From Ferrovibrio sp. (GTDB taxonomy: Bacteria; Pseudomonadota; Alphaproteobacteria; Ferrovibrionales; Ferrovibrionaceae): a stretch of DNA of 42,667 nucleotides. This document shows, in pieces, positions 24,165 through 42,369 of this stretch; position 1 is the stretch's first letter; every line of letters starts with the position of its first letter. The notes under the pieces are model-generated. The model ran no database searches. It was given only the letters and a program-made list of their open reading frames with translations, and was not told the origin of the DNA. Location: the NCBI RefSeq assembly GCF_029255545.1, contig NZ_JANLJJ010000042.1:14913-57579 (forward strand), given 5' to 3'. Made by a program: the position numbers and the translations under genes.

Positions 24165-25958
24165 ATGCCGAGCTATACCGCCCCGATCAGGGACTTCCAG
24201 TTCGTGCTGCACGATGTGCTGCAGATCGAGAAACTGAGCAACCAGCTGGGCTTCACCGATGCCTCGCGCGACGTCATCGACGCCGTGCTGGAAGAAGGTG
24301 GCAAGTTCATGAGCGAGGTGACCGCCCCGCTCAACCAGGTTGGCGACCAGGAAGGCTGCAAGTGGGATAACGGCGTGGTGACCACGCCGACCGGCTTCAA
24401 GGAAGCCTACCAGCAGTATTGCGAGGCCGGCTGGGGCGGCCTGACCGCGGAAGAGAAATACGGTGGCCAGGGCCTGCCGCACGTGATCGGCATCGCCATG
24501 GCGGAAATCCAGTCTTCCGCCAACATGGCGTTTGCCATGTATCCCGGCCTGACCCATGGCGCCTACGAGGCCCTGCTGCGGCACGGCTCGGAAGAGCAGA
24601 AGGACATGTATCTGCCGAACATGGCGTCGGGCAAATGGACCGGCACCATGAACCTGACCGAGCCGCATTGCGGCACCGATCTGGGCCTGATGCGCACCAA
24701 GGCGGAGCCGCAGGCCGATGGCAGCTACCTGATCACCGGCACCAAGATCTTCATCTCGGCCGGCGAGCATGACCTGGCCGAGAACATCATCCATCTGGTG
24801 CTGGCCAAGATTCCCGGCGGCCCGGAAGGCATCAAGGGCGTCAGCCTCTTTGTCGTGCCGAAATTCCTGGTCAACCCGGATGGCAGCCTGGGCGCGCGTA
24901 ATGGCGTGTCCTGTGGTTCGATCGAGCACAAGATGGGCATCCATGGCAACTCGACCTGCGTGCTGAACTACGATGCCGCCAAGGGCTGGCTGGTTGGCCA
25001 GAAGCACAAGGGCATGCAGGCGATGTTCGTGATGATGAACGCCGCCCGCCTCGGCGTCGGCGTGCAGGGCCTGTCCCAGGCCGAGGTGGCCTACCAGAAC
25101 GCGCTGACCTATGCCAATGACCGCCTGCAGGGTCGTGCGATTACGGGGACGAAAGCGCCAGATAAACCCGCCGATCCGATCATCGTGCATCCCGACATCC
25201 GGCGCATGCTGCTGACCATCAAGGCCTTCGTCGAGGGCAGCCGCGCGCTGGCTTTGTGGACCGGCATCGAGCTGGATGTCGCCGCCAAGCACCCCGAGCC
25301 GGAGAAGCGCCAGGAGGCCGAAGACCTGGTCGCCTTCCTCACCCCGATGGTGAAGGCCTACATGACCGACTACGGCTACCAGTGCGCCACCATGGCCCAG
25401 CAGGTCTATGGCGGCCACGGCTACATCGCCGAATGGGGCATGGAGCAGTTCGTGCGCGATGCCCGCATCGCCATGATCTATGAAGGTGCCAACGGCATCC
25501 AGGCGCTCGACCTGGTCGGCCGCAAGCTGCCGACTGGCATCGGCCGGCTGGCACGGCGGTTCTTCCATCCGGTCTCGGTCTTCATCGAGGAAAAGATGAT
25601 GGACCCGGCGATCGGCAAGGATTACGTAATGCCGCTGGCCAAGGCCTTCGCCCGCCTGCAGACCGCCACCGCGCTGATCAGCGAACGTGGCCTGAAGAAC
25701 CCGGACGAAGCCGGCGCCGCCTCGTGGGATTACCTGAACATGTTCGCGCTGGTCGCGCTGGGCTTCATGTGGGCCCGCATGGCCGAGGTGGCCAAGCAGA
25801 AGTTGGCCGAGGGTGTGGGCGACAAGGATTTCTACGAGACCAAGCTGGTCACCGCTCGCTTCTTCATGGAGCGCATGCTGCCCGACACGGCGGCGCAACT
25901 GGCCAAGATCCAGGCCGGCTCTGAGAGCACCATGATGCTGAAGGCCGCCAATTTCTGA
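24165..25958 (+). CDS. Acyl-CoA dehydrogenase, large type with extra C-terminal domain (DmdC-like)
   Basis: At 597 residues this belongs to the large acyl-CoA dehydrogenases (DmdC/FadE5-like), about 200 residues longer than the classic type. The N-terminus [19 protein letters not shown] is characteristic of this group. FAD- and substrate-binding blocks [48 protein letters not shown] and [18 protein letters not shown] are seen, with the Glu of YEGAN at the catalytic position. The final 130 residues form the additional helical domain. DmdC itself acts on 3-methylmercaptopropionyl-CoA, but close relatives work on ordinary acyl-CoAs, so no DMSP role is claimed. It sits in the middle of the beta-oxidation operon. 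Confidence 0.92.
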
Positions 25959-25966
25959 TCATCAAG

Positions 25967-26000
25967 GCCATGCCACTCCTCAGAAGAAGGAGGGCATGGC
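25967..26000 (+). other. Intercistronic hairpin between two acyl-CoA dehydrogenase genes
   Basis: GCCATGCC (25967-25974) pairs with GGCATGGC (25993-26000), and inside it CTCCT (25976-25980) pairs with AGGAG (25988-25992), leaving one bulged A and a 7-base loop. No T-run follows. It begins 8 bases after the stop codon and ends 25 bases before the next ATG. It would hide an AGGAGG and the upstream in-frame ATG at 25996, and may act in mRNA processing or stability. Confidence 0.6.
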
Positions 26001-26025
26001 AAGTCCAGGAGAGGAAACGAAGAGA

Positions 26026-27174
26026 ATGACCGAATACGGCATCCCGCGCAGCATCTACACCGAAGACCACCAGATGTTCCGCGAGGCGGCGCGCAAGTTC
26101 TTCGAGCGCGAAGTCGTGCCTCACCATGCCAAATGGGAAGAAGACGGCCTCGTGCCGCGCGAGGTGTGGCGCAAGGCCGGCGAGAACGGTTTCCTCTGCG
26201 CCACCATGCCGGAGCAGTATGGCGGCTCGAGCGTCGACCGCCTTTATTCGGCCATCCTGATGGAAGAGCAGGCCTATACCGGCTGCACCGGCCCGGGCTT
26301 CTCGCTGCATTCCGACATCGTCGCGCCCTACATCCTCGCCTATGGCTCGGAAGAGCAGAAAAAGAAATGGCTGCCCAAAATGGCCTCCGGCGAGGTGATC
26401 GGCGCCATTGCCATGACCGAGCCGAGCGGCGGCTCCGACCTGCAGGCGGTGAAGACCACCGCCATCAAGGACGGCAACGAATACGTCATCAACGGCCAGA
26501 AGACCTTCATCACCAATGGCCAGAATGCCGACCTGGTGATCGTGGTGACCAAGACCGACCCCAAGCAGGGCGCCAAGGGCACCAGTTTGTTCCTGGTCGA
26601 GGCTGGCCGCGAGGGCTTCACCAAGGGCCGCAATCTCGAAAAGCTCGGCATGAAGGCGCAGGACACCTCCGAGCTGTTCTTCGCCGATGTGCGCGTACCG
26701 CCCGAGAACATGCTGGGCGGCGAAGGCCAGGGCTTCTTCTACCTGATGCAGGAACTGGCCTGGGAACGCCTGCAGATCGCGATCATGGCCGTGGCCGGCT
26801 GCGAGGCCGCGCTGAAATGGACGGTGGACTACACCCGCGAACGCAAGGCCTTCGGCAAAAGCGTGCTGGATTTCCAGAACACCAAATTCGAGCTGGCCGA
26901 GATGAAGACCGAGACGCAGATCGCCCGGGTCTTCGTCGACAAATGCATCGAGATGGTGGCCCAGCACAAGCTGGACGTCGCCACCGCCGCGATGGCGAAA
27001 TACTGGTGCAGCGACCTGCAGTGCAAGATCCTCGATCGCTGCCTGCAGCTGTTCGGCGGCTATGGTTTCATGTGGGAATATCCGATCACCCGTGCCTATG
27101 CCGATGCCCGCGTCCAGCGCATCTATGGCGGCACCAACGAGATCATGAAGGAACTGATCAGCCGCACCCTGTAA
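26026..27174 (+). CDS. Acyl-CoA dehydrogenase, long-chain (LCAD-like) type
   Basis: This 382-residue enzyme oxidises acyl-CoA to trans-2-enoyl-CoA using FAD. Blocks include [50 protein letters not shown] and [12 protein letters not shown]. The C-terminal motif reads [12 protein letters not shown]: the Glu used as base by MCAD is Gly here. Instead [12 protein letters not shown] carries a Glu (about residue 247) at the place used by long-chain and isovaleryl-CoA dehydrogenases, so a long-chain or branched substrate is likely. ATG 26026 is preferred over an in-frame ATG at 25996, which lies in the hairpin; GGAGAGG precedes it. It differs clearly from the 597-residue enzyme upstream, giving the operon two substrate ranges. 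Confidence 0.92.
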
Positions 27175-27217
27175 ATCCGGGACCCGGCGCAACCGCGCTA
27201 CACTAGGGAGAGAAAAA

Positions 27218-28426
27218 ATGACCGAAGCCTTCGTTTACGACGCCGTGCGCACGCCGCGCGGCAAGGGCCGTTCCAGCGGCGCCCTGCATGAAGTCACCCC
27301 GATGCGCCTGGCCACCACCGTGCTGGAAGCGGTGCGCGACCGCAACGAGCTGGATACCAGCCTGGTCGATGACGTGGTGCTGGGCTGCGTGGCGCCGGTA
27401 GGCGAGCAGGGTGCCGATATCGCCCGCGTCGCGGTGATCCAGGCGAATTACGCCGAGACCGTTGCCGGCGTGCAGATCAACCGCTTCTGCGCCTCGGGGC
27501 TGGAGGCCTGCAACATGGCCGCGGCCAAGGTGCTGTCCGGCCAGGCAGAGATGGCGATCGGCGGCGGCGTCGAGAGCATGAGCCGCATCCCGATGGGCTC
27601 CGACGGCGGCGCCTGGGCGACCGACCCGGCGGTAGCGATGCCGACCTATTTCGTGCCGCAGGGCATCTCGGCCGACCTGATCGCCACCAAATACGGCATG
27701 AGCCGCGCCGACGTGGACTCGTATGCGGTGGAAAGCCAGAAGCGCGCCAAGCGCTCCTGGGATGAAGGCCGCTTCAAGAAATCGATCATCCCGGTCAAGG
27801 ATATCAACGGCCTGACCGTGCTGGATCGCGACGAGCATCTGCGGCCGGAAACTACCATGCAGAGCCTGGCCGCCCTAGAGCCCTCGTTCGGCGTGATGGG
27901 TGAGCAGTTCGGTTTCGACTCGGTTGCGATGCAGCGTTATCCCGATGTGGAGCGGATCGAGCATATGCACCATGCCGGCAATTCCTCCGGCATCGTCGAC
28001 GGCGCCGCCGCCGTGCTGATCGGCAATGCCGAAGGCGGCCGCAAGGCCGGCCTGAAGCCGCGCGCCCGCATTCGCGCCTTCACCTCGGTCGGCTCGGAAC
28101 CCACCATCATGCTGACCGGCCCCAGCTTCGCCGCCGAGAAGGCGCTGAAGCTGGCCGGCATGAAGCCCTCCGATATCGACCTTTATGAACTGAACGAGGC
28201 TTTTGCCTCGGTGGTGCTGCGCTTCATGCAGGTACTGAACGTGCCGCATGACAAGATCAACGTGAATGGCGGCGCCATCGCAATGGGCCATCCGCTGGGC
28301 GCCACCGGGGCGATGATCCTGGGCACCATGGTCGATGAGCTGGAGCGCAGCGACAAGAACACCGCGCTGGTCACGCTCTGCGTCGGCGCCGGCATGGGCA
28401 TCGCCACCATCATCGAACGCGTCTGA
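27218..28426 (+). CDS. Acetyl-CoA C-acyltransferase (second thiolase)
   Basis: The 402-residue thiolase has the nucleophilic Cys in [15 protein letters not shown], the catalytic His in [17 protein letters not shown], and the second Cys in [14 protein letters not shown]. It is more diverged from the first thiolase of the operon (CASG rather than CGSS at the active site) than a recent duplicate would be, so the two probably have different chain-length ranges. AGGGAGAG precedes the ATG. Only 34 bases separate it from the following hydratase-dehydrogenase gene, the partner expected for a FadA/FadI-type subunit. The two would form a trifunctional complex in the cytoplasm. Confidence 0.94.
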
Positions 28427-28460
28427 TCGCGGCCATAACAAAAGATTCAAGGGTAGGACA

Positions 28461-30590
28461 ATGATCGACTACAGCATCGACGGCGACGGCATCGCCGCCA
28501 TCGTCTGGAACATGGCCGACCGGCCGATGAACGTGATGAACGGCGACAGCCTCGCCGCCTTCCGCGAGGCCGTCTACAAGGCCATCCAGGACAAGGCCGT
28601 GAAAGGCGTGATCGTCACCTCGGCGAAGAACGACTTCGTCGCCGGCGCCGACCTGGTGAACCTGCTGAAGGAAAGCCTGGACGCCGCCAAGGCCCTGCAG
28701 AACTCCTTCGCCCTGCAGAAGCTGTTCCGCGACATCGAAAAGGCCGGCAAGCCTTTCGTGGCCGCCATCAACGGCACGGCTTTGGGCGGCGGTTATGAAA
28801 TCTGCCTCGCCTGCCATCGCCGCATCGCCGCCGACAATCCCAAGGCTTTGATCGGCCTGCCGGAAGCCAGCATCGGCCTGCTGCCCGGTGCCGGCGGCAC
28901 CCAGCGGCTGCCGCGCATGATCGGCGTGTCCAAGGCCCTGCCGATGATCCTGGAAAGCAAGAAGGTCGATCCCAAGGCCGCGCTGGCCCTTGGCATGGTC
29001 GACGAGCTGGTGGCGCCAGGTGAGCTGCTGATCCGCGCCAAGGCCTGGCTGCTCAATGAGGGCCAGACCGGCCATGTGAAGCCCTGGGACCAGAAAGGCT
29101 TCCGCGTGCCGGAAGCCGCCAACACGCCGAAGGGCGCGCAGGTCTTCACTGCCGGCAACGGCATGCTGCGCGCCAAGACCATGGGCAACTACCCGAACGC
29201 GCAATACATCATGTCCTGCGTCTACGAGGGCATGCTGGTCGATATTGATACCGGCCTGAAGATCGAAAGCCGCTATTTCGTCGCCTGCACCCAGTCGAAG
29301 GAAGCGCGCAACATGATCCGCTCGCTGTTCTTCTCAATCGGCGAAGCCAACAAGCTGGCCAACCGCCCCAAGAACGTGCCGACCCAGGCCTACACAAAGG
29401 TGGGCGTCCTGGGCGCCGGCATGATGGGCGCCGGCATTGCCTATGCAGCGTCGTCTGCCGGGCTGAATGTCGTGCTGCTGGACTCCACCCAGGAAGCCGC
29501 CGAGAAAGGCAAGGCCTATACCGCCGGCCTGCTCGACAAGCGGGTGAAGGCGAAGAAGACCAGCGAAGCCGACAAGGAAAAGCAGCTGGGCCTGATCAAG
29601 GCCACGACGTCTTACGACGACCTCAAGGGCTGCGACCTAGTGATCGAGGCCGTGTTCGAGGATCGCGCCATCAAGGCCGAGGTGACGAAGAAGGCCGAGG
29701 CTCAGCTGGAGCCGACCGCCATCTTTGCCTCCAACACCTCGACCCTGCCGATTACCGGCCTGGCCGAAGCCAGCAGCCGCCCGGCCAATTTCATCGGCCT
29801 GCATTTCTTCTCGCCCGTCGACAAGATGCCGCTGGTGGAGATCATCCGCGGCAAGCAGACCTCGGATGAGACGCTGGCGCGGGCCATGGACTTCGTGAAG
29901 AAGATACGCAAGACGCCGATCGTGGTGAACGACTCACGCGGTTTCTATACCAGCCGCGTCTTCGCGACCTACGTGACCGAAGGCCTGACCATGCTGGCCG
30001 AGGGCGTGGCCCCGGCAGTGATCGAGAATGCCGGCAAGATGGCCGGCATGCCGGTCGGTCCGCTGGCGCTGGCCGATGAAGTGTCGCTGGAGCTGATGCA
30101 CCGCGTGCGCAGCCAGACCAGGAAGGACCTGGGTGACGCCTACAAATCGGATGGTTCAGAGCCGGTGCTCCAGGCCATGGTCGAAAAGCTGGGTCGCATC
30201 GGCAAGAAGGCCGGCAAGGGCTTCTATGACTATCCGGCCGACGGCAGGAAGAAGCTGTGGGCTGATCTGGGCAAACATTTCCCGGTCAAGGCCGAACAGC
30301 CCGACGTGCAGGACGTGATCAAGCGGCTGGTCTACATCCAGTCGGTCGAAACCGCCCGTTGCCTGGAGGAAAAGGTGATCATCGACGTGCGCGATGCCGA
30401 TGTCGGCTCGATCATGGGCTGGGGCTTTCCGCCCTTCCGGGGCGGCACGGTCAGCAACATCGACAGCGTGGGCGTGAAGCCCTTCGTGGCCGAATGCGAC
30501 CAGCTGGCGCAGAAATTCGGTGCCCGCTTCACGCCACCCAGGCTGCTGCGCGACATGGCCGATCAGGGCAAAAGCTTCTACGCCGCCTGA
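28461..30590 (+). CDS. Enoyl-CoA hydratase/3-hydroxyacyl-CoA dehydrogenase (FadB/FadJ-type)
   Basis: The 709-residue protein has the crotonase domain first: [15 protein letters not shown] and [20 protein letters not shown] carry both catalytic glutamates (about residues 110-150). The NAD-binding dehydrogenase follows from about residue 313 ([18 protein letters not shown]), with the active-site region [16 protein letters not shown] and two C-terminal helical domains. This is the FadB/FadJ order and size, opposite to the 21822 protein. The true start is ATG 28461; the frame is open upstream only because it reads through the thiolase gene in another frame. It ends the operon and is followed 22 bases later by a strong terminator. 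Confidence 0.95.
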
Positions 30591-35663: not shown

Positions 35664-36443
35664 ATGCCCCCGCCCGCCACGTCGCTCAAGGCTGTCCCCG
35701 ATATCCGCGCAACCGTATCGGCCGAGGAATGGCAGATCCGCGTCGACCTGGCCGCCGCCTATCGCCTGGTGGCGCATTATGGCTGGGACGACCTGATCTT
35801 TACCCATATCTCCGCCCGCGTGCCGGGGCCGCAGGAGCATTTCCTGATCAATCCCTATGGCTGGATGTTCCACGAGATCACGGCATCCTCGCTGGTGAAG
35901 GTGGATCTGGAGGGCAACATCGTCTCGCCCACCGACAACATCATTAATCCCGCCGGCTTCACCATCCATTCCGCCGTGCATGCGGCGCGCCACGACGTGG
36001 GCTGTGTGCTGCACCTGCATACCGGCGACGGTATCGCGGTTTCGGCCATGGCCGAGGGCCTGCTGCCGCTGAGCCAGACCGCCATGGTGGCCCTGAGCAA
36101 CCTGAGCTACCACGAGTTCGAGGGCATCGCGCTGAACCTGGACGAGCGTGAGCGTCTGGTGGCCGATCTGGGCATGAACAACCTGATGATCCTGCGCAAC
36201 CACGGCACGCTGGCCTGCGGCAAGACCGTGGCCCAGGCCTTCCTCAACATCCACGTGCTGGAACGGGCCTGCCAGGCCCAGGTGCGCGCCCTGGCCGGCG
36301 GCCGGCCGATGCACACGCCGCCGGCGCATGTGCAGGAGGTGGTGAAGGCCCAGGTGCGCGGCATGAAGATCGATGTCAGCGGCCTGGCCTGGGCCGGGCT
36401 GCTGCGTTTGCTGGATGCGAAGGATCCCGGCTACAGGCTCTGA
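35664..36443 (+). CDS. Class II aldolase/adducin family protein
   Basis: The 259-residue product has the fold of zinc-dependent class II aldolases such as fuculose-phosphate aldolase and of the non-enzymatic adducin head. Metal ligands are visible as HLHTGD (about residues 114-119) and LRNHGTLACGK (about 175), with the TNYSLR-like start LVAHYGWDDLIFTHISARVPG and the substrate-loop acid. Many family members lacking a clear phosphate-binding loop act as decarboxylases or lyases on hydroxy acids, so retro-aldol cleavage is only the family default. It ends the TRAP/amidase operon. Its 3' end overlaps the convergent kynureninase-like gene by 13 bases. Confidence 0.88.
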   Translation: MPPPATSLKAVPDIRATVSAEEWQIRVDLAAAYRLVAHYGWDDLIFTHISARVPGPQEHFLINPYGWMFHEITASSLVKVDLEGNIVSPTDNIINPAGFTIHSAVHAARHDVGCVLHLHTGDGIAVSAMAEGLLPLSQTAMVALSNLSYHEFEGIALNLDERERLVADLGMNNLMILRNHGTLACGKTVAQAFLNIHVLERACQAQVRALAGGRPMHTPPAHVQEVVKAQVRGMKIDVSGLAWAGLLRLLDAKDPGYRL

Positions 36444-37615
36444 AGCCGCCGCAGCAGCTCATCCACATCGGCCTGCGTCTGGTGCAGGCCGAAGCCAAAG
36501 CGCAGGCGACGGCCGCGCAGGTCGGTGACGACCTTTGCCTCGGTCAGCCGGCGATGCATCGCCTCGGCATCATCCAGGTCGAAGGTGAGGAAATTGCCGC
36601 GCGCCGGGTTGGTGATCGGCACCACCAGCCACTCGGACGGCAGGAGCCGGGGCAGGCCGGCGACAAATCGCCCCTGCAGGGCCTGGGCATGATCATGGAT
36701 CATCGCCACCGTGATGCCCTGCCCCTGCAGCCAATTCTGCACGGCATTGAAGCGATACAGCCCCGAGGCATCGAAGGTGGCGCCCATGAAACGCCAGCCG
36801 TTTTCCGCATAGGCCACGCGGGCGTCATCGGGCTTGCTCAGCGCGCCGAAGGCGGCATACCAGCCGGTATCGCGCGGCCGTGCGCCCCAACCCGGCGGGC
36901 AATGCATGAAACATACACCCTCGCCCGCCATGGCGTATTTGTAGCCGCCAGCCAGATAGAAGGCCCGCGCCTCGAATGCCGACCAGTCGACCGGTCGCGC
37001 CATGAAGGCGTGGTAGCCATCCACCGCCAGCAATGCATCGCCGGCAGCCGCCACGATCTCATCCAGCGCCGTCACGGCGAAACCGGAATTGAAGAACACC
37101 TGACTGAGATAGATCAGGTCGAATCCGGCGCGGGCCGCTTCCGCGAACCGCGCCGCGAAGCTGTCGAACGGCTCAGCAGCCACGCGCTGCACCTGCGCCA
37201 GGCCGTCTTCCTCCAAGCGGGCGATCTGGCGCGTGAAGGAATGGAACTCGCTGTTGCTGGTCAGCACCCGCACCGGCCGCTCCGCCGGGCAGCAGGACAG
37301 CAGCCGCATCAGCAACTCGTGGGTGTTCGGCGCAAAGACGACACTCGTTGGATCGCTTAAATTGAGGTGCCAGGCGACATGCCCCTGCGCTGCGGGCAGC
37401 ACCGCGCCCAGGATATGCTCCCATTTGCCGTCGATCAGGCGGGCGGCATCGTCCCAGGCCTGTTGGTGGGCGTCGCGACTGACATCAGGCCAGGGATGAT
37501 GGCTGTGGGCGGCGAAATGCAGGCGTTGCGGGTCGCTGCTTAAGAAACGGCTGAAATGGGATTTCAGGTCGAGCAAGGCAGGTATCCCGCTTTTCGCCCT
37601 TTCCGTGCCGGGCAT
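36431..37615 (-). CDS. Class V aminotransferase-fold PLP enzyme, probable kynureninase-like
   Basis: The 394-residue protein is a fold-type I PLP enzyme of the class V group. The cofactor residues are seen in AVDGYHAF (Asp 199, His 202) and LAGGYKYAMAGEG (Schiff-base Lys 226); SNSEFHSF near residue 120 lies where the aromatic stacking residue is expected. It is divergent from tryptophan 2,3-dioxygenase with 37 bases between the starts. Kynureninase, which cleaves kynurenine to anthranilate and alanine, acts two steps later in that path, so the pairing supports this role. Direct assignment is not certain, because class V also holds cysteine desulfurases and lyases. No ribosome-binding site precedes ATG 37615; a TTG at 37576 is an alternative start. 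Confidence 0.75.
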   Translation of the reverse strand: MPGTERAKSGIPALLDLKSHFSRFLSSDPQRLHFAAHSHHPWPDVSRDAHQQAWDDAARLIDGKWEHILGAVLPAAQGHVAWHLNLSDPTSVVFAPNTHELLMRLLSCCPAERPVRVLTSNSEFHSFTRQIARLEEDGLAQVQRVAAEPFDSFAARFAEAARAGFDLIYLSQVFFNSGFAVTALDEIVAAAGDALLAVDGYHAFMARPVDWSAFEARAFYLAGGYKYAMAGEGVCFMHCPPGWGARPRDTGWYAAFGALSKPDDARVAYAENGWRFMGATFDASGLYRFNAVQNWLQGQGITVAMIHDHAQALQGRFVAGLPRLLPSEWLVVPITNPARGNFLTFDLDDAEAMHRRLTEAKVVTDLRGRRLRFGFGLHQTQADVDELLRRLQSL

Positions 37616-37618
37616 GAT

Positions 37619-37634
37619 ATTTTAAGCTTAAAAT
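37619..37634. promoter_or_regulatory. 16-bp AT-rich palindrome between the tryptophan-catabolism genes
   Basis: ATTTTAAGCTTAAAAT is a perfect 16-bp palindrome in the 37-base gap between divergent starts. It stands out as pure A/T around AGCT in G+C-rich DNA. It lies at once before the kynureninase-like ATG and 18 bases before the dioxygenase ATG, so a bound protein could affect both. Candidate operator. Confidence 0.6.
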
Positions 37635-37652
37635 TATTTGCGGAGCAAGCCC

Positions 37653-38471
37653 ATGACCACCGACAGCATCCAGACCGATTTCTCCGACCGGATGAGCTAT
37701 GGCGACTACCTGAAGCTCGACACCCTGCTGGCGGCCCAGCAGCCGCTTTCGGCCGAGCATGACGAATTGCTGTTCATCGTCATCCACCAGGTGCAGGAAT
37801 TATGGATGAAACTGCTCAATCGCGAGCTGGATTCCGCGATTGACCATATCCGCGCCGACGAACTGGGCCCCTCGTTCAAATGCCTCTCCCGCGTTTCGCG
37901 CGTGCAGATGCAACTGATCCAGGCCTGGGACGTGCTCGCCACCATGACGCCGGCGGATTACCTGCGTTTCCGCCCGGTGCTGGGCTCGTCTTCCGGCTTC
38001 CAGTCCTGGCAATATCGCCTGATCGAATTCAAGCTCGGCGCCAAGAACGCGCTGATGCTCAAACCCCACCGCCACCGCGCCGACATCTTCGCCCGCCTGC
38101 AGGCCGCTTTTGATGCCCCCAGCATTTACGACGAAGCCCTGCGCCTGATGGCGCGCCGCGGCCTGGCCGTGCCGGCCGATGTGCTGAACCGCGACGTGAC
38201 CAAACCGCATGAGGCCGATCCGCGCATCGAGGCGTTGTGGCAGATCGTCTACCGCGAATCCGAAACCCATTTCGATCTCTACGAGATGGCCGAGGAGCTG
38301 GTCGATGTCGAGGACAGCTTCCAGCAATGGCGCTTCCGCCACATGAAGACGGTAGAGCGCATCATCGGCATGCGGCCCGGCACCGGCGGCAGCGCCGGCG
38401 TGGCCTATCTGCGCCAGGCGCTGGAACGCAGCTTCTTCCCCGAGCTGTGGTCGGTGCGCACGAAACTCTGA
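37653..38471 (+). CDS. kynA: Tryptophan 2,3-dioxygenase
   Basis: The 272-residue heme enzyme opens the indole ring of L-tryptophan to N-formylkynurenine, the first step of the kynurenine path. Family blocks are complete: [28 protein letters not shown] with the distal active-site His 45, [14 protein letters not shown], and [23 protein letters not shown] with the heme-ligand His 230 and the substrate-binding Thr 244. Length is typical (270-290). ATG 37653 is chosen over the TTG at 37638 because CGGAG lies seven bases before it. A kynurenine formamidase gene is not in the window, and the amidase at 34103 is not of that family. Convergent with the AEC permease. Confidence 0.96.
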
Positions 38472-38478
38472 TCCGGCC

Positions 38479-39417
38479 TCAATAGGCCGTAAACAGCACC
38501 ATGAAAGCCGACACGGTGATCGTGGCGATCATCGTCGTCACCAGGATGGTGCTGGAGGTGCGCTGCACGTAGGTATTCGTGGCGGTGGCGAGGATATAAA
38601 CATTCGCCGCCGTCGGCATGGAGGCCTGGATCACCGCCACGGCGGTGAGGAACGGATCGAGCTTCAGCACATAGGCCGCCAGCATCCAGACCAGCAGCGG
38701 ATGGATCGCCAGCTTGCCGATGGCGGTGAGCGTCACCTGTTCCAGCCCCTCCGAGATCGGCCGGCCGACCAGCGTGAGGCCCAGCGCGAACAGCGCGCAA
38801 GGCGCCGAGGCATCCGACAGCAGCTTGAGCAGCGCATACAGCGGCACCGGCAAATGCCAGCCGATCAGGCCCCAGATCAGGCCGGCAAAGGTGGAGAGGA
38901 TCAGCGGATTGCGGCTCATACCGATCGCCACCTTGCGGAAGATCGCACCCAGCGAGGCATGGCCGCCCGCGCTGCCCTCGATGATCGCGGTCGTGATCGG
39001 GATCAGCAGGATATGGTCGAACACGATCACCAGCACGGCCGGCAGCACGGCGGCATCGCCGAACAGCGTGACCAGAATGGGCAGGCCCATGAAGCCGACA
39101 TTGCCGAAGGATGCGCCCATGCCCTGCACGGCGCGCTCGCCCCACTTCATCGGAAACAGCAAGCGGCTCAGGCCCACCACCAGGCCATAGGCCATCAACC
39201 CGCCGCCGGTATAGGCGGCAACGAATTTCGGGTCGAAAGCCTCGAAGACCGGGGCTTCCGACATCTTGAGGAACAGCATTGCCGGCAGGGCGAACCAGAT
39301 CACGAAGGCATTCAGGCCCAGATAAGCCTGGGCGGTGATCAGTTTTGTATAGCCGGCGGCATAGCCGGTGAAGATCAGGCCGAAAAACGGCAGCGAGACG
39401 TTGAGCAGGGTTTCCAT
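38479..39417 (-). CDS. AEC (auxin efflux carrier) family permease
   Basis: The 312-residue membrane protein fits the ten-helix AEC/bile-acid-sodium-symporter fold. Marks of the family are the N-terminal FFGLIFTGYAAGY, the mid-protein GASFGNVGFMGLPI with conserved Asn-Gly turn (about residues 102-115), and in the second half SMPTAANVYILAT. Bacterial AEC members carry malate, malonate or similar dicarboxylates and other small anions; the cargo here is not known. It is the last gene of a four-gene minus-strand run (crotonase, TetR, triple hot-dog protein, permease), 25 bases after the previous stop. A small 6-bp hairpin spans its stop codon. Confidence 0.9.
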   Translation of the reverse strand: METLLNVSLPFFGLIFTGYAAGYTKLITAQAYLGLNAFVIWFALPAMLFLKMSEAPVFEAFDPKFVAAYTGGGLMAYGLVVGLSRLLFPMKWGERAVQGMGASFGNVGFMGLPILVTLFGDAAVLPAVLVIVFDHILLIPITTAIIEGSAGGHASLGAIFRKVAIGMSRNPLILSTFAGLIWGLIGWHLPVPLYALLKLLSDASAPCALFALGLTLVGRPISEGLEQVTLTAIGKLAIHPLLVWMLAAYVLKLDPFLTAVAVIQASMPTAANVYILATATNTYVQRTSSTILVTTMIATITVSAFMVLFTAY

Positions 39418-39442: not shown

Positions 39443-40807
39443 CTATTCCACCGGCTGCGGCGTCACCAGCCGCGTGGAAAACGACTGCCGCACATGATCG
39501 GGCATCACGATGGACTTGCGGGCCTTCAGGTCGAACAGCACGGCGATGATCTCGGCACGCGCCAGCGGCTGGCGCGTGTTGCTGTCGAGCAGGAAATGGC
39601 AGAAGCGCCAGGTCTTTTCCCGCAGCTCAAGCATGCCGGTGCGGGTGTAATAGGCATCACCGACATGTAGCGGCTGGAAATAGTCGATAGTGTAATCCAG
39701 CGCGGCAGAGCCCAGGCCCTGCTGGCGCATCTGCTCGGCGGTCATGTCGCCGCCAGCCAGCATGTTGCCGGCCGCCTCCGAGAAACGCGCGATATAGAAT
39801 CGCGTCGCCATGCGGCCGGTCTCTTCCGCTTCCCACTTGTCCACCGAACCACGGCAGGTCTCGAACATGCCTTCCACCGGAGCGGATGGCGGCGGCAGGC
39901 TGCCGGTCGGGCCGGGCGGCGGCGGCGCCACAAGCTGCGCGGCCAGTTTCCCGGCCGCCTGTTTCACATCGGCCGGCAGGGCAAACGCGCCGCTGCCATC
40001 CAGCGCGTCGAGGATCACGGTCGCTTCGCAGGTGGCCGACAATGTGCCGGTCTCGTCCTCGTAGAGCTCGTGATACAGATGCAGGCGGTCGGCTTCCACG
40101 GCACGGATACCGCTGCGCAGGCGCAGCACCGCACCCTCGTGGTTTTCGCGCTTGAACTGGATGCGATGCTTCAGCGGCCGCACCGCCACCCTGTCGGTGC
40201 GGCGGCGCGTCGGACCATAACCAAGCGCCAGCAGCACCTGCTTCTCGGCTTCGGCGAAACGCGCGAGATAGAACTGTACGTTCAGATGCCCCATGTGATC
40301 GCATTCCCAGGGCTGCACCGGCGCGCGGCCGCTGGGCACGAAACCCTGTTCTGCCGGCGGCAGGGCCACCGCGCCGGCCGGCTCCTCGCCGCTGACCCGC
40401 AGCGTTTCAAAACCAGCCTGGATATCGGCCGGCAGCGGCACGGATTTGCGCTGCTCCAGGTCGAAGCACAAGCCGAGCACATCGGCCTGCATGCAAAGCG
40501 CACCGCTTTCGGCATTGTACAGCCGATGCTGAAACCGGATCTTGCGCCCTTCGGCCGAGCGCACGCCGCTTTCCACCCGGATCATGTCGCCGGCATGCAA
40601 CTCGCTCAGGTATTTCATCTCGGCATTCACCGCGACGATGCCCAGCTTGTGCTCAAGAAAAGCCTTCTGCCCGAAGCCCGCCGCCAGCATCGCGCTGGCT
40701 GCCGCGTCGCTGACGCGGGCGGTATAGAACTGCACGTTCATGTGGCCATACTGGTCGCATTCCGTGGCGGCGACGGAGCCGCGGTAGGTCTCGACAAAAC
40801 TGCTCAC
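39443..40807 (-). CDS. Triple hot-dog-domain acyl-CoA thioesterase-like protein
   Basis: The 454-residue protein holds three tandem 4HBT hot-dog domains. Each begins with a related motif: ECDQYGHMNVQFY (16-28, Asp 18), ECDHMGHLNVQFY (168-180, Asp 170) and EAEETGRMATRFY (326-338), and each ends with a similar strand and tail (FDLEQRKSVPLPADI, ALDGSGAFALPADV, FDLKARKSIVMPDHV). Asp in the first motif is the catalytic residue of 4-hydroxybenzoyl-CoA thioesterases. Domains 1 and 2 keep Asp-His-Asn; in domain 3 these are Glu 328, Arg 332 and Ala 334, so it has probably lost activity. A Pro-rich linker (294-311) leads to domain 3. The start is a GTG. Such enzymes release CoA from acyl-CoAs; usual members have one or two domains. 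Confidence 0.88.
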   Translation of the reverse strand: MSSFVETYRGSVAATECDQYGHMNVQFYTARVSDAAASAMLAAGFGQKAFLEHKLGIVAVNAEMKYLSELHAGDMIRVESGVRSAEGRKIRFQHRLYNAESGALCMQADVLGLCFDLEQRKSVPLPADIQAGFETLRVSGEEPAGAVALPPAEQGFVPSGRAPVQPWECDHMGHLNVQFYLARFAEAEKQVLLALGYGPTRRRTDRVAVRPLKHRIQFKRENHEGAVLRLRSGIRAVEADRLHLYHELYEDETGTLSATCEATVILDALDGSGAFALPADVKQAAGKLAAQLVAPPPPGPTGSLPPPSAPVEGMFETCRGSVDKWEAEETGRMATRFYIARFSEAAGNMLAGGDMTAEQMRQQGLGSAALDYTIDYFQPLHVGDAYYTRTGMLELREKTWRFCHFLLDSNTRQPLARAEIIAVLFDLKARKSIVMPDHVRQSFSTRLVTPQPVE

Positions 40808-40874: not shown

Positions 40875-41528
40875 TCAAGCACCGGAACGCAGCCGGCGGG
40901 CCAGGCTTTCCACGGCCCGGCGCACCACGGCCTCGCCGTCATCGCCCAGCACCTTCAGGCGGCCGGTGACCTCCAGCATAAGCGCGCCGGTGATGGCGGC
41001 CGCCAGTGACACCGTCTCGGCCTTCAGCGCCTCAGGCGGCAACGGCGCCAGCCGGCGGATGCCGTCGCCCATCACGGTGTAGCACTGGATCAGACGGCCG
41101 TTCAGCAGGCGATCCAGTTCGGGATTGAGGCCCATGGGCTTCAGACCCTGGGACAGGTATAGGCCGAGATGGAGGTCGTCGGGCCGGTCGCGGTAGAAGC
41201 CGTAGAAGGCCAGCGCGGCGGCCAGCAGGTGATCCTCGGCCGAGGCTTTCGCCACAGCCTCGCGCAGGTGCTTCAGCAGGTCGGCCAGCGAGCCGGCCAG
41301 CATGTCGGCATAGAGCGCTTCCTTGCCGGGATAATGCAGATACACCGTGCCGACAGCCACGCCGGCCTCAGCCGCGATGGCGCGCAGGGTGGCGCCATCC
41401 AGCCCGTCACGGGCAAAAATGGCGCGCGCGGCCTGCAGGATGGCGTCGCGCTTGAATGCCTTCACCGCGCCGCGGCGCTTTTGCTTCGCGGCAGCGGTGT
41501 CGGCATTGGCGGTCGTCTCAGCGGGCAT
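40875..41528 (-). CDS. TetR-family transcriptional regulator
   Basis: The 217-residue protein has a TetR-type DNA-binding domain at about residues 25-71 ([51 protein letters not shown]), where the helix-turn-helix is [18 protein letters not shown] basic extension rich in Ala and Lys precedes it. The rest is the helical ligand-binding and dimer domain. It overlaps the crotonase stop by 11 bases and is followed by the thioesterase-like gene, so it is in the operon it probably controls. The likely operator is the repeat cluster at 42405-42429. An acyl-CoA or free acid is the reasonable guess for its ligand, from the neighbours. Confidence 0.92.
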
Positions 41529-42369
41529 TCTTCCAGGCCAGCGGGTCGCCGCCGTCGCGTTCCTTCACGGCGGCCTTGAAGCCGATCTGTTCGCAGCGCG
41601 CCTTGAACGCCACGCCCTCGGGTGAATGCCGCGTGATGCCATCGAACAGTGTCGCCAGCGTCTGGGTCGAGTTCAGGCCCATATTGTCATAGGCCTGATT
41701 GACCATCATTTTCTGCATCATCAGCTGGTTCTTCGGCACGCTGGCGATGCGCGCCAGCAGAGCCTCCACATGGGCATCCAGATCGGCTTCCGGCACGGCG
41801 TCGATCACCAGGCCGTATTCCTTGGCCGTTTTGCCGTCGATCAGGTCGCCAGTCAGCAGCATGCGTTTGGCTTTCTCGGCCCCTAAGCGATAGACCCACA
41901 TCGCCGTGGTAGGGCAGCCCCAGATGCGTGCCGGCGGATAGCCGATCCTGGCGTCTTCCGCCATCACCACCAGGTCGCAGCACAGGGCGATGTCGCTGCC
42001 GCCGGCCACGGCAAAGCCGCGCACCTTGGCCACCACGGGTTTGAGCGAGCGCCAGAGGCTGAAATAGCAATCGGTGGCGTGCCGCATCCACTGGTAATCC
42101 ACCAGCGGGTCCCAGGGCATGTCCTGGCTACCCTTCACCGGGCGCGGCGCCTCGGCATATTCCTTGAGATCATAGCCCGAGCAGAAGGCTCGCCCCGCGC
42201 CGGTCAGCGCGATCACATGCACATCGTCATCCCGGTTGGCGCGCTCCACGGCGGCTCGTAGCAGGTCGGGCGTCTCTTCATGGATGGCGTTCAGGTGTTC
42301 GGGCCGGTTCAGGGTGATGCGGGCGATGCGGCCGTCGCGATCGTACAAAACGATGGGTTCTGTCGTCAT
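41518..42369 (-). CDS. Crotonase/enoyl-CoA hydratase family protein lacking both hydratase glutamates
   Basis: The 283-residue protein has the crotonase fold: [14 protein letters not shown] at the N-terminus, [15 protein letters not shown] for CoA binding, and the oxyanion-hole region [17 protein letters not shown]. In hydratases two glutamates act as acid/base, one in the GGCEL motif and one in the GxPE motif. Here these read GGSDI (Asp 126) and GYPPARIWG (Pro 146), so simple enoyl-CoA hydration is doubtful; isomerase, hydrolase or another crotonase chemistry is possible. A strong GGAGGAAG precedes ATG 42369. It is the first gene of the operon with the TetR regulator, thioesterase-like protein and AEC permease. 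Confidence 0.88.

Follow-up and report, generated by a model that had tools for sequence, protein, structure and literature searches.

The window analysed here, a stretch of 42,667 nucleotides from a Ferrovibrio sp. contig, carries on its minus strand a gene for a protein with three hot-dog domains in a single chain (D1, D2 and D3). The gene is the third in a row that runs in the order crotonase-family protein, TetR-family regulator, triple hot-dog protein and AEC-family transporter, with gaps of -11, 67 and 25 bases between successive genes (Table 1). The frame of the triple opens with a GTG codon, with a purine-rich GAGAGAG just upstream, and it reads as coding sequence: GC content at the three codon positions is 0.69, 0.46 and 0.81, and in each of the three domains most differences from one ortholog are third-position changes. 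A beta-oxidation operon lies about 9 kb from the triple on the opposite strand. The cluster is also adjoined by a tryptophan-degradation pair (window positions 36431-38471), in which a kynureninase-like aminotransferase V protein is encoded divergently from a tryptophan 2,3-dioxygenase gene, an order kept in some Ferrovibrio. PADLOC gave no match for a defence-system assignment.

Table 1. Features of the triple hot-dog gene and its surroundings, in window positions; residue numbers refer to the 454-residue chain.
Feature	Position	Strand	Evidence or remark
Three-hot-dog protein, 454 aa (stop codon included in the positions)	39443..40807	-	ORF, Pfam 4HBT_2, AlphaFold2
D1, residues 1-142, YbgC-like single hot-dog	40382..40807	-	YbgC structures 5t06/1s5u; groups with stand-alone single genes
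Motif 1, ECDQYGHMNVQFY, residues 16-28	40724..40762	-	
D2, residues 154-291, N-half of double hot-dog	39935..40348	-	Pfam; domain tree; 4gak superposition with D3
Motif 2, ECDHMGHLNVQFY, residues 168-180	40268..40306	-	
D3, residues 314-450, C-half of double hot-dog	39458..39868	-	Pfam; domain tree
Degenerate motif 3, EAEETGRMATRFY, residues 326-338	39794..39832	-	
TetR-family regulator	40875..41528	-	Overlaps crotonase gene by 11 bases; conserved neighbour
Crotonase-family protein (NCBIfam PRK08272 subfamily)	41518..42369	-	Conserved partner in Ferrovibrio and split-gene relatives
AEC-family (auxin efflux carrier) transporter	38479..39417	-	25 bases past the stop of the triple; conserved neighbour
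Beta-oxidation operon: FadE-like acyl-CoA dehydrogenase, acyl-CoA dehydrogenase, thiolase, FadJ-like subunit	24165..30590	+	

Three stretches of the protein match the Pfam family PF13279 (4HBT_2; E 6e-59 and 198 bits for the whole protein, against a cut-off of 25.5), and in a genome search each of the three domains exceeds this cut-off on its own. For the YbgC/FadM model TIGR00051 the score is 69.6 bits, next to a cut-off of 68.7, but it is a sum over the three domains. Pairwise identity among D1, D2 and D3 is 24-31%, and their alignment scores lie 18-33 standard deviations above those of shuffled sequences; a chance or low-complexity repeat was considered and ruled out by the domain Z-scores together with the profiles. 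The motif ECDxxGHxNVQFY is present in D1 and D2 and absent from D3, and on the minus-strand frame both copies and their degenerate relative lie exactly where the initial annotation had placed them. The catalytic residues are intact in D1 (D18, H22, N24, Y28 and E69) and in D2 (D170, H174, N176, Y180 and E221), D18 and D170 being the catalytic aspartate that YbgC/FadM-type enzymes carry at the start of the first motif; D3 lacks it, with E328, R332 and A334 replacing Asp, His and Asn, and keeps G366, A369, H404, D426 and R430. These three replacements had been proposed before and are found here, but the glutamate is limited to this species group: the same place is still Asp in three other Ferrovibrio species (ECDENGRMATRFY in G004 and G008, ECDRNGIMATRFY in G007), and it is the His and the Asn that are replaced in all ten Ferrovibrio genomes. 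Likewise, the similar tail said to end each repeat is intact in D1 (FDLEQRKSVPLPAD) and D3 (FDLKARKSIVMPD), but that of D2 is eroded (LDALDGSGAFALPAD).

The order crotonase, TetR regulator, hot-dog is common to Ferrovibrio, to genome G017 and to family f42, and the AEC transporter gene is likewise kept in Ferrovibrio and in G011, G015 and G017. Orthologs of the beta-oxidation operon immediately adjoin the hot-dog genes in six split-gene relatives (G014, G015, G017, G058, G184 and G280) and lie near a double hot-dog gene in a seventh genome (G018); in some of these genomes the stretch covered stops before the FadE-like gene. Taken together, the crotonase, the TetR regulator and the beta-oxidation neighbours suggest acyl-CoA hydrolysis tied to beta-oxidation. 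In Escherichia coli, the thioesterases FadM and TesB hydrolyse dead-end intermediates of this pathway (PMC9329746), and by analogy our best guess is that the triple would play a similar relief role, acting on acyl-CoA intermediates. It is possible, and to us a reading to be entertained with some reserve, that the protein serves instead another acyl-CoA pathway (branched-chain, terpenoid or aromatic) that is set by the crotonase partner and is not primarily beta-oxidation. Of the partners, the crotonase is the best conserved, with 66-94% identity against 33-77% for the hot-dogs. At the usual places, in two 10-residue stretches, it seems to be without the Glu pair typical of enoyl-CoA hydratases; its reaction may not be an ordinary hydration. 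A biotin carboxylase and acyl-CoA dehydrogenases are found nearby in G017 and G280, and Celeribacter indicus has tandem doubles in a plasmid region for the degradation of aromatics. However, orthologs of the set formed by FadE, acyl-CoA dehydrogenase, thiolase and FadJ adjoin the hot-dog genes in two families, and a link to beta-oxidation is the reading that we favour, although the distance and opposite strand of the operon in the window itself speak against it.

The known hot-dog enzymes are dimers or double domains, and three domains in one chain pose a puzzle of assembly. The AlphaFold2 prediction for the single chain, made with eight orthologs (pLDDT 90.3, pTM 0.90), contains three hot-dog folds and not two, as the initial annotation had anticipated, and comparison with homologues agrees, the third region aligning with hot-dog domains and not with an unrelated fold. 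In VIA-align, residues 154-423, which comprise D2 and D3, superpose on the double-hot-dog acyl-ACP thioesterase 4gak with a Z of 26.0 and an rmsd of 2.5 Å over 244 of 250 residues, and on FatA-type enzymes with a Z of about 24. Residues 2-134, which correspond to D1, superpose on the YbgC single domains 5t06 and 1s5u (Z 18.4, rmsd 1.4-1.6 Å, 22-23% identity). The VIA-align list consists mainly of double hot-dogs because D2-D3 fill it, and families missing from it are not thereby excluded. Since D2-D3 match double hot-dogs and D1 matches singles, the model predicts an intrachain pseudo-dimer of D2 with D3 and leaves D1 as the odd one.

The division of labour suggested by this pairing can be followed in the residues that each half of a double hot-dog has kept. 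Among 43 N-halves (positions in D1 numbering), D18, H22, Y28 and E69 are retained in 100% and N24 in 98%; among 43 C-halves, D18 is kept in 72%, H22 and N24 in 12% each and E69 in 7%. For residues of the interface strand and the tail, C-halves keep G56 (95%), A59 (70%), H94 (95%), D116 (95%) and R120 (100%), and the corresponding figures for N-halves are 5%, 23%, 35%, 53% and 21%. Single hot-dogs keep both sets, the catalytic one and that of the interface strand and tail. Across the 38 conserved columns of the singles, loss is independent in the two halves (9 columns kept in both, against about 10 expected); the column count thus carries no significance, and the case for 'complementary loss' has to be made from the identity of the lost residues. 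In distant Ferrovibrio, D3 is conserved at 50-62%, D1 at 59-64% and D2 at 45-47%. D3 is therefore about as conserved as D1, better conserved than D2, and not a decaying remnant.

Hot-dog domains are reported never to be unpaired (PMC2698920) and, with D2 and D3 paired within the chain, D1 would be left to pair with the D1 of a second chain. This is most likely also because D1 keeps both residue sets, so that it would retain both halves of the machinery, and it has an analogy in the TA-type tetramers typical of YbgC relatives (PMC2698920). Two chains would then assemble six domains into three hot-dog pairs with four live sites, two at the D1:D1 pair and one in each D2:D3 pair. The answer to the assembly puzzle is thus likely to include the two-chain, six-domain particle that the initial annotation had offered as one of its options. 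We regard as doubtful the alternative that D1 packs on D2:D3 in a three-domain monomer, or that it pairs with D3 and leaves D2 over. Such an arrangement would fit a whole-chain pTM as high as that of the prediction, which suggests a defined place for D1 relative to D2:D3, but it is difficult to reconcile with the rule that hot-dog domains are not found alone and with a predicted D2:D3 interface that is already satisfied. Moreover, stand-alone single genes exist, and their YbgC-like relatives form TA tetramers (PMC2698920).

Within the D2:D3 pair, D3 keeps the interface-strand and tail residues that D2 has lost, which argues that it is the second wall of D2's site rather than a regulator. We propose that D2 would supply the catalytic Asp170, His174, Asn176, Tyr180 and Glu221, and that D3 would supply the opposite wall and a probable cradle for CoA, formed by the interface strand LGSAALDY, His404 and the FDLKARK tail. 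D2 and D3 would share one composite active site, its mirror image being dead on both sides. That the apparently dead D3 completes the active site of D2 is, from the pattern of retained residues, the most likely reading, and it would agree with what is known of these enzymes: in tetramers of the 4HBT type, one chain contributes the Asp and His and the neighbouring chain a binding Tyr (PMC8918352), the loop that follows the interface strand holds CoA, and a double hot-dog generally has a single active site for its two domains (PMC2698920). An earlier suggestion was that D3 is a regulatory or structural domain. If it were dead and had only such a function, for example ligand sensing, D2 would work alone or with another partner, which we find improbable. 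The His and the Asn are indeed lost in every Ferrovibrio species, and the second hot-dog of the fungal fatty acid synthase (FAS) dehydratase offers a precedent for a domain that stands outside the pseudo-dimer, inserted in a connecting loop (PMC2698920). However, D2 and D3 are predicted to adopt the geometry of a FatA-type pseudo-dimer, the positions kept in D3 are those lost in D2, and D3 is the better conserved of the two. In addition, doubles of the D2-D3 type are common as genes of their own in Alphaproteobacteria, and their N-halves invariably retain Asp, His and Tyr.

Doubles of this kind also occur in tandem runs in several alphaproteobacterial families, three in a row at loci L029, L054 and L061, two in a row at L049, L050 and L056, and a further run at L090:5043-6768; in these runs the N-half is mostly intact and the C-half degenerate. 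The host genome has, in addition, a second single hot-dog (L003; G000:C63:28123-28563) that is 38% identical to D1, and similar matches are found in several other Ferrovibrio genomes. Full-length triples are much more restricted. The triple is present in all ten Ferrovibrio genomes searched, the other nine being 53-77% identical and, among 289 genomes of the class, only Ferrovibrio and three Tistrella-matching genomes have one, the latter sharing 96-100% identity with WP_014748598.1 of plasmid pTM4. In 299 genomes of the phylum, a profile search at E 1e-40 found no further triple, both genome sets being even draws and not complete surveys, and no homologues were found in viral contigs.

The origin of the Ferrovibrio protein, which had no place in the initial annotation, can be read from its relatives, in which two overlapping genes are still separate. 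Six genomes from other genera of the family (G011 and G013-G017) and three of family f42 (G058, G184 and G280) carry a single hot-dog gene that matches residues 2-150 of the triple, directly followed by a double that matches residues 150-451. Seven of the nine gene pairs share bases between the first stop codon and the second start codon (ATGA or GTGA), and in the other two the double starts within 14 bases. In a tree of 104 domains, D1 falls among the singles, D2 among the N-halves and D3 among the C-halves, and in all three cases the pieces from G011 are nearest to the Ferrovibrio domains (support 81 for D1, 88 for D2 and 98 for D3), a neighbour on which a tree of the joined D2-D3 agrees (support 96). 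The adjacent split orthologs and the placement of each domain therefore show that the triple arose in the Ferrovibrio lineage by fusion of neighbouring, overlapping single and double hot-dog genes. That the frame is a sequencing or assembly artefact joining two real genes, such as relatives in other genera do carry separately, has practically no credence, because the same fused frame with in-frame linkers is shared by ten separately sequenced Ferrovibrio genomes that diverge to the extent given above. As for the Tistrella triple, a separate origin was not demonstrated, since a single clade with Ferrovibrio was not rejected (AU p 0.588).

The Tistrella protein has a similar architecture, a 449-residue chain of three hot-dogs with a live middle domain and a degenerate third. 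It differs in its identity (about 31%), in its neighbours and in its first domain, which is also degenerate, and D1 therefore need not be catalytic everywhere. In Tistrella mobilis the gene (L087:5938-7287) is borne on plasmid pTM4 in an unrelated neighbourhood, and only its middle domain is intact. Among better-studied enzymes, E. coli YbgC (1s5u/5t06) resembles D1 in fold and in the catalytic Asp near the N-terminus, the residue whose D18N substitution inactivates the Haemophilus influenzae enzyme (PMC2698920). YbgC, however, has one domain per chain, whereas here the domain is fused before a double hot-dog, and the context is not tol-pal. The acyl-ACP thioesterases FatA and FatB and their bacterial relatives 4gak, 2own and 2ess are pseudo-dimers with one catalytic and one substrate-binding half (PMC5830452), a likeness that in our model concerns D2-D3 only. 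For plant FatB, Mayer and Shanklin, as cited in PMC5830452, place the catalytic residues in the C-terminal hot-dog; D2-D3 fail this defining feature of the FatA/FatB group because their catalytic half is N-terminal, and they differ further by an identity of only 10-14% and by the extra N-terminal D1. The fungal FAS dehydratase (2UV8) is likewise a triple hot-dog with two of its domains in a pseudo-dimer, domains 1 and 3 pairing, domain 2 inserted, and the catalytic residues in one domain (PMC2698920). In contrast to that dehydratase site within a giant multi-enzyme, the protein described here stands alone and its predicted pairing is 2:3. Finally, ACOT7 and ACOT12 share the tandem hot-dogs, and ACOT7 needs both halves with half of the sites working (PMC4388271), but they have two domains, belong to another subfamily with another site architecture, and match D2-D3 more weakly (Z 19-23). 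The openly accessible literature yielded no description of a single plus a double hot-dog in one stand-alone thioesterase, and no paper on Ferrovibrio thioesterases. The parts, a domain of the YbgC type and a double hot-dog, are already known; what appears to be new is their stand-alone arrangement in one chain.

Considered as a whole, we think it probable that the protein is a fused acyl-CoA thioesterase with a composite D2:D3 site, a D1:D1 dimer and a link to beta-oxidation. A more tentative proposal, which at present we would not put beyond a possibility, is that it is a two-headed stand-alone enzyme: a six-domain particle joined through D1 would combine, in a fixed ratio, two kinds of site, the symmetric ones of D1:D1 and the asymmetric ones of D2:D3, and hydrolyse two classes of beta-oxidation intermediate, and relatives would build the same particle from two translationally overlapping genes.

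Stand-alone chains of three hot-dog domains are rare, and in the genomes searched they turned up only in Ferrovibrio and Tistrella. The case would show how a dead-looking half of an enzyme can persist by completing the site of its neighbour, and it pinpoints the exact residues that would be involved. The fusion is also a natural 'Rosetta stone', since it leads one to expect a joint complex of the single and double proteins that overlapping genes encode in related Alphaproteobacteria.
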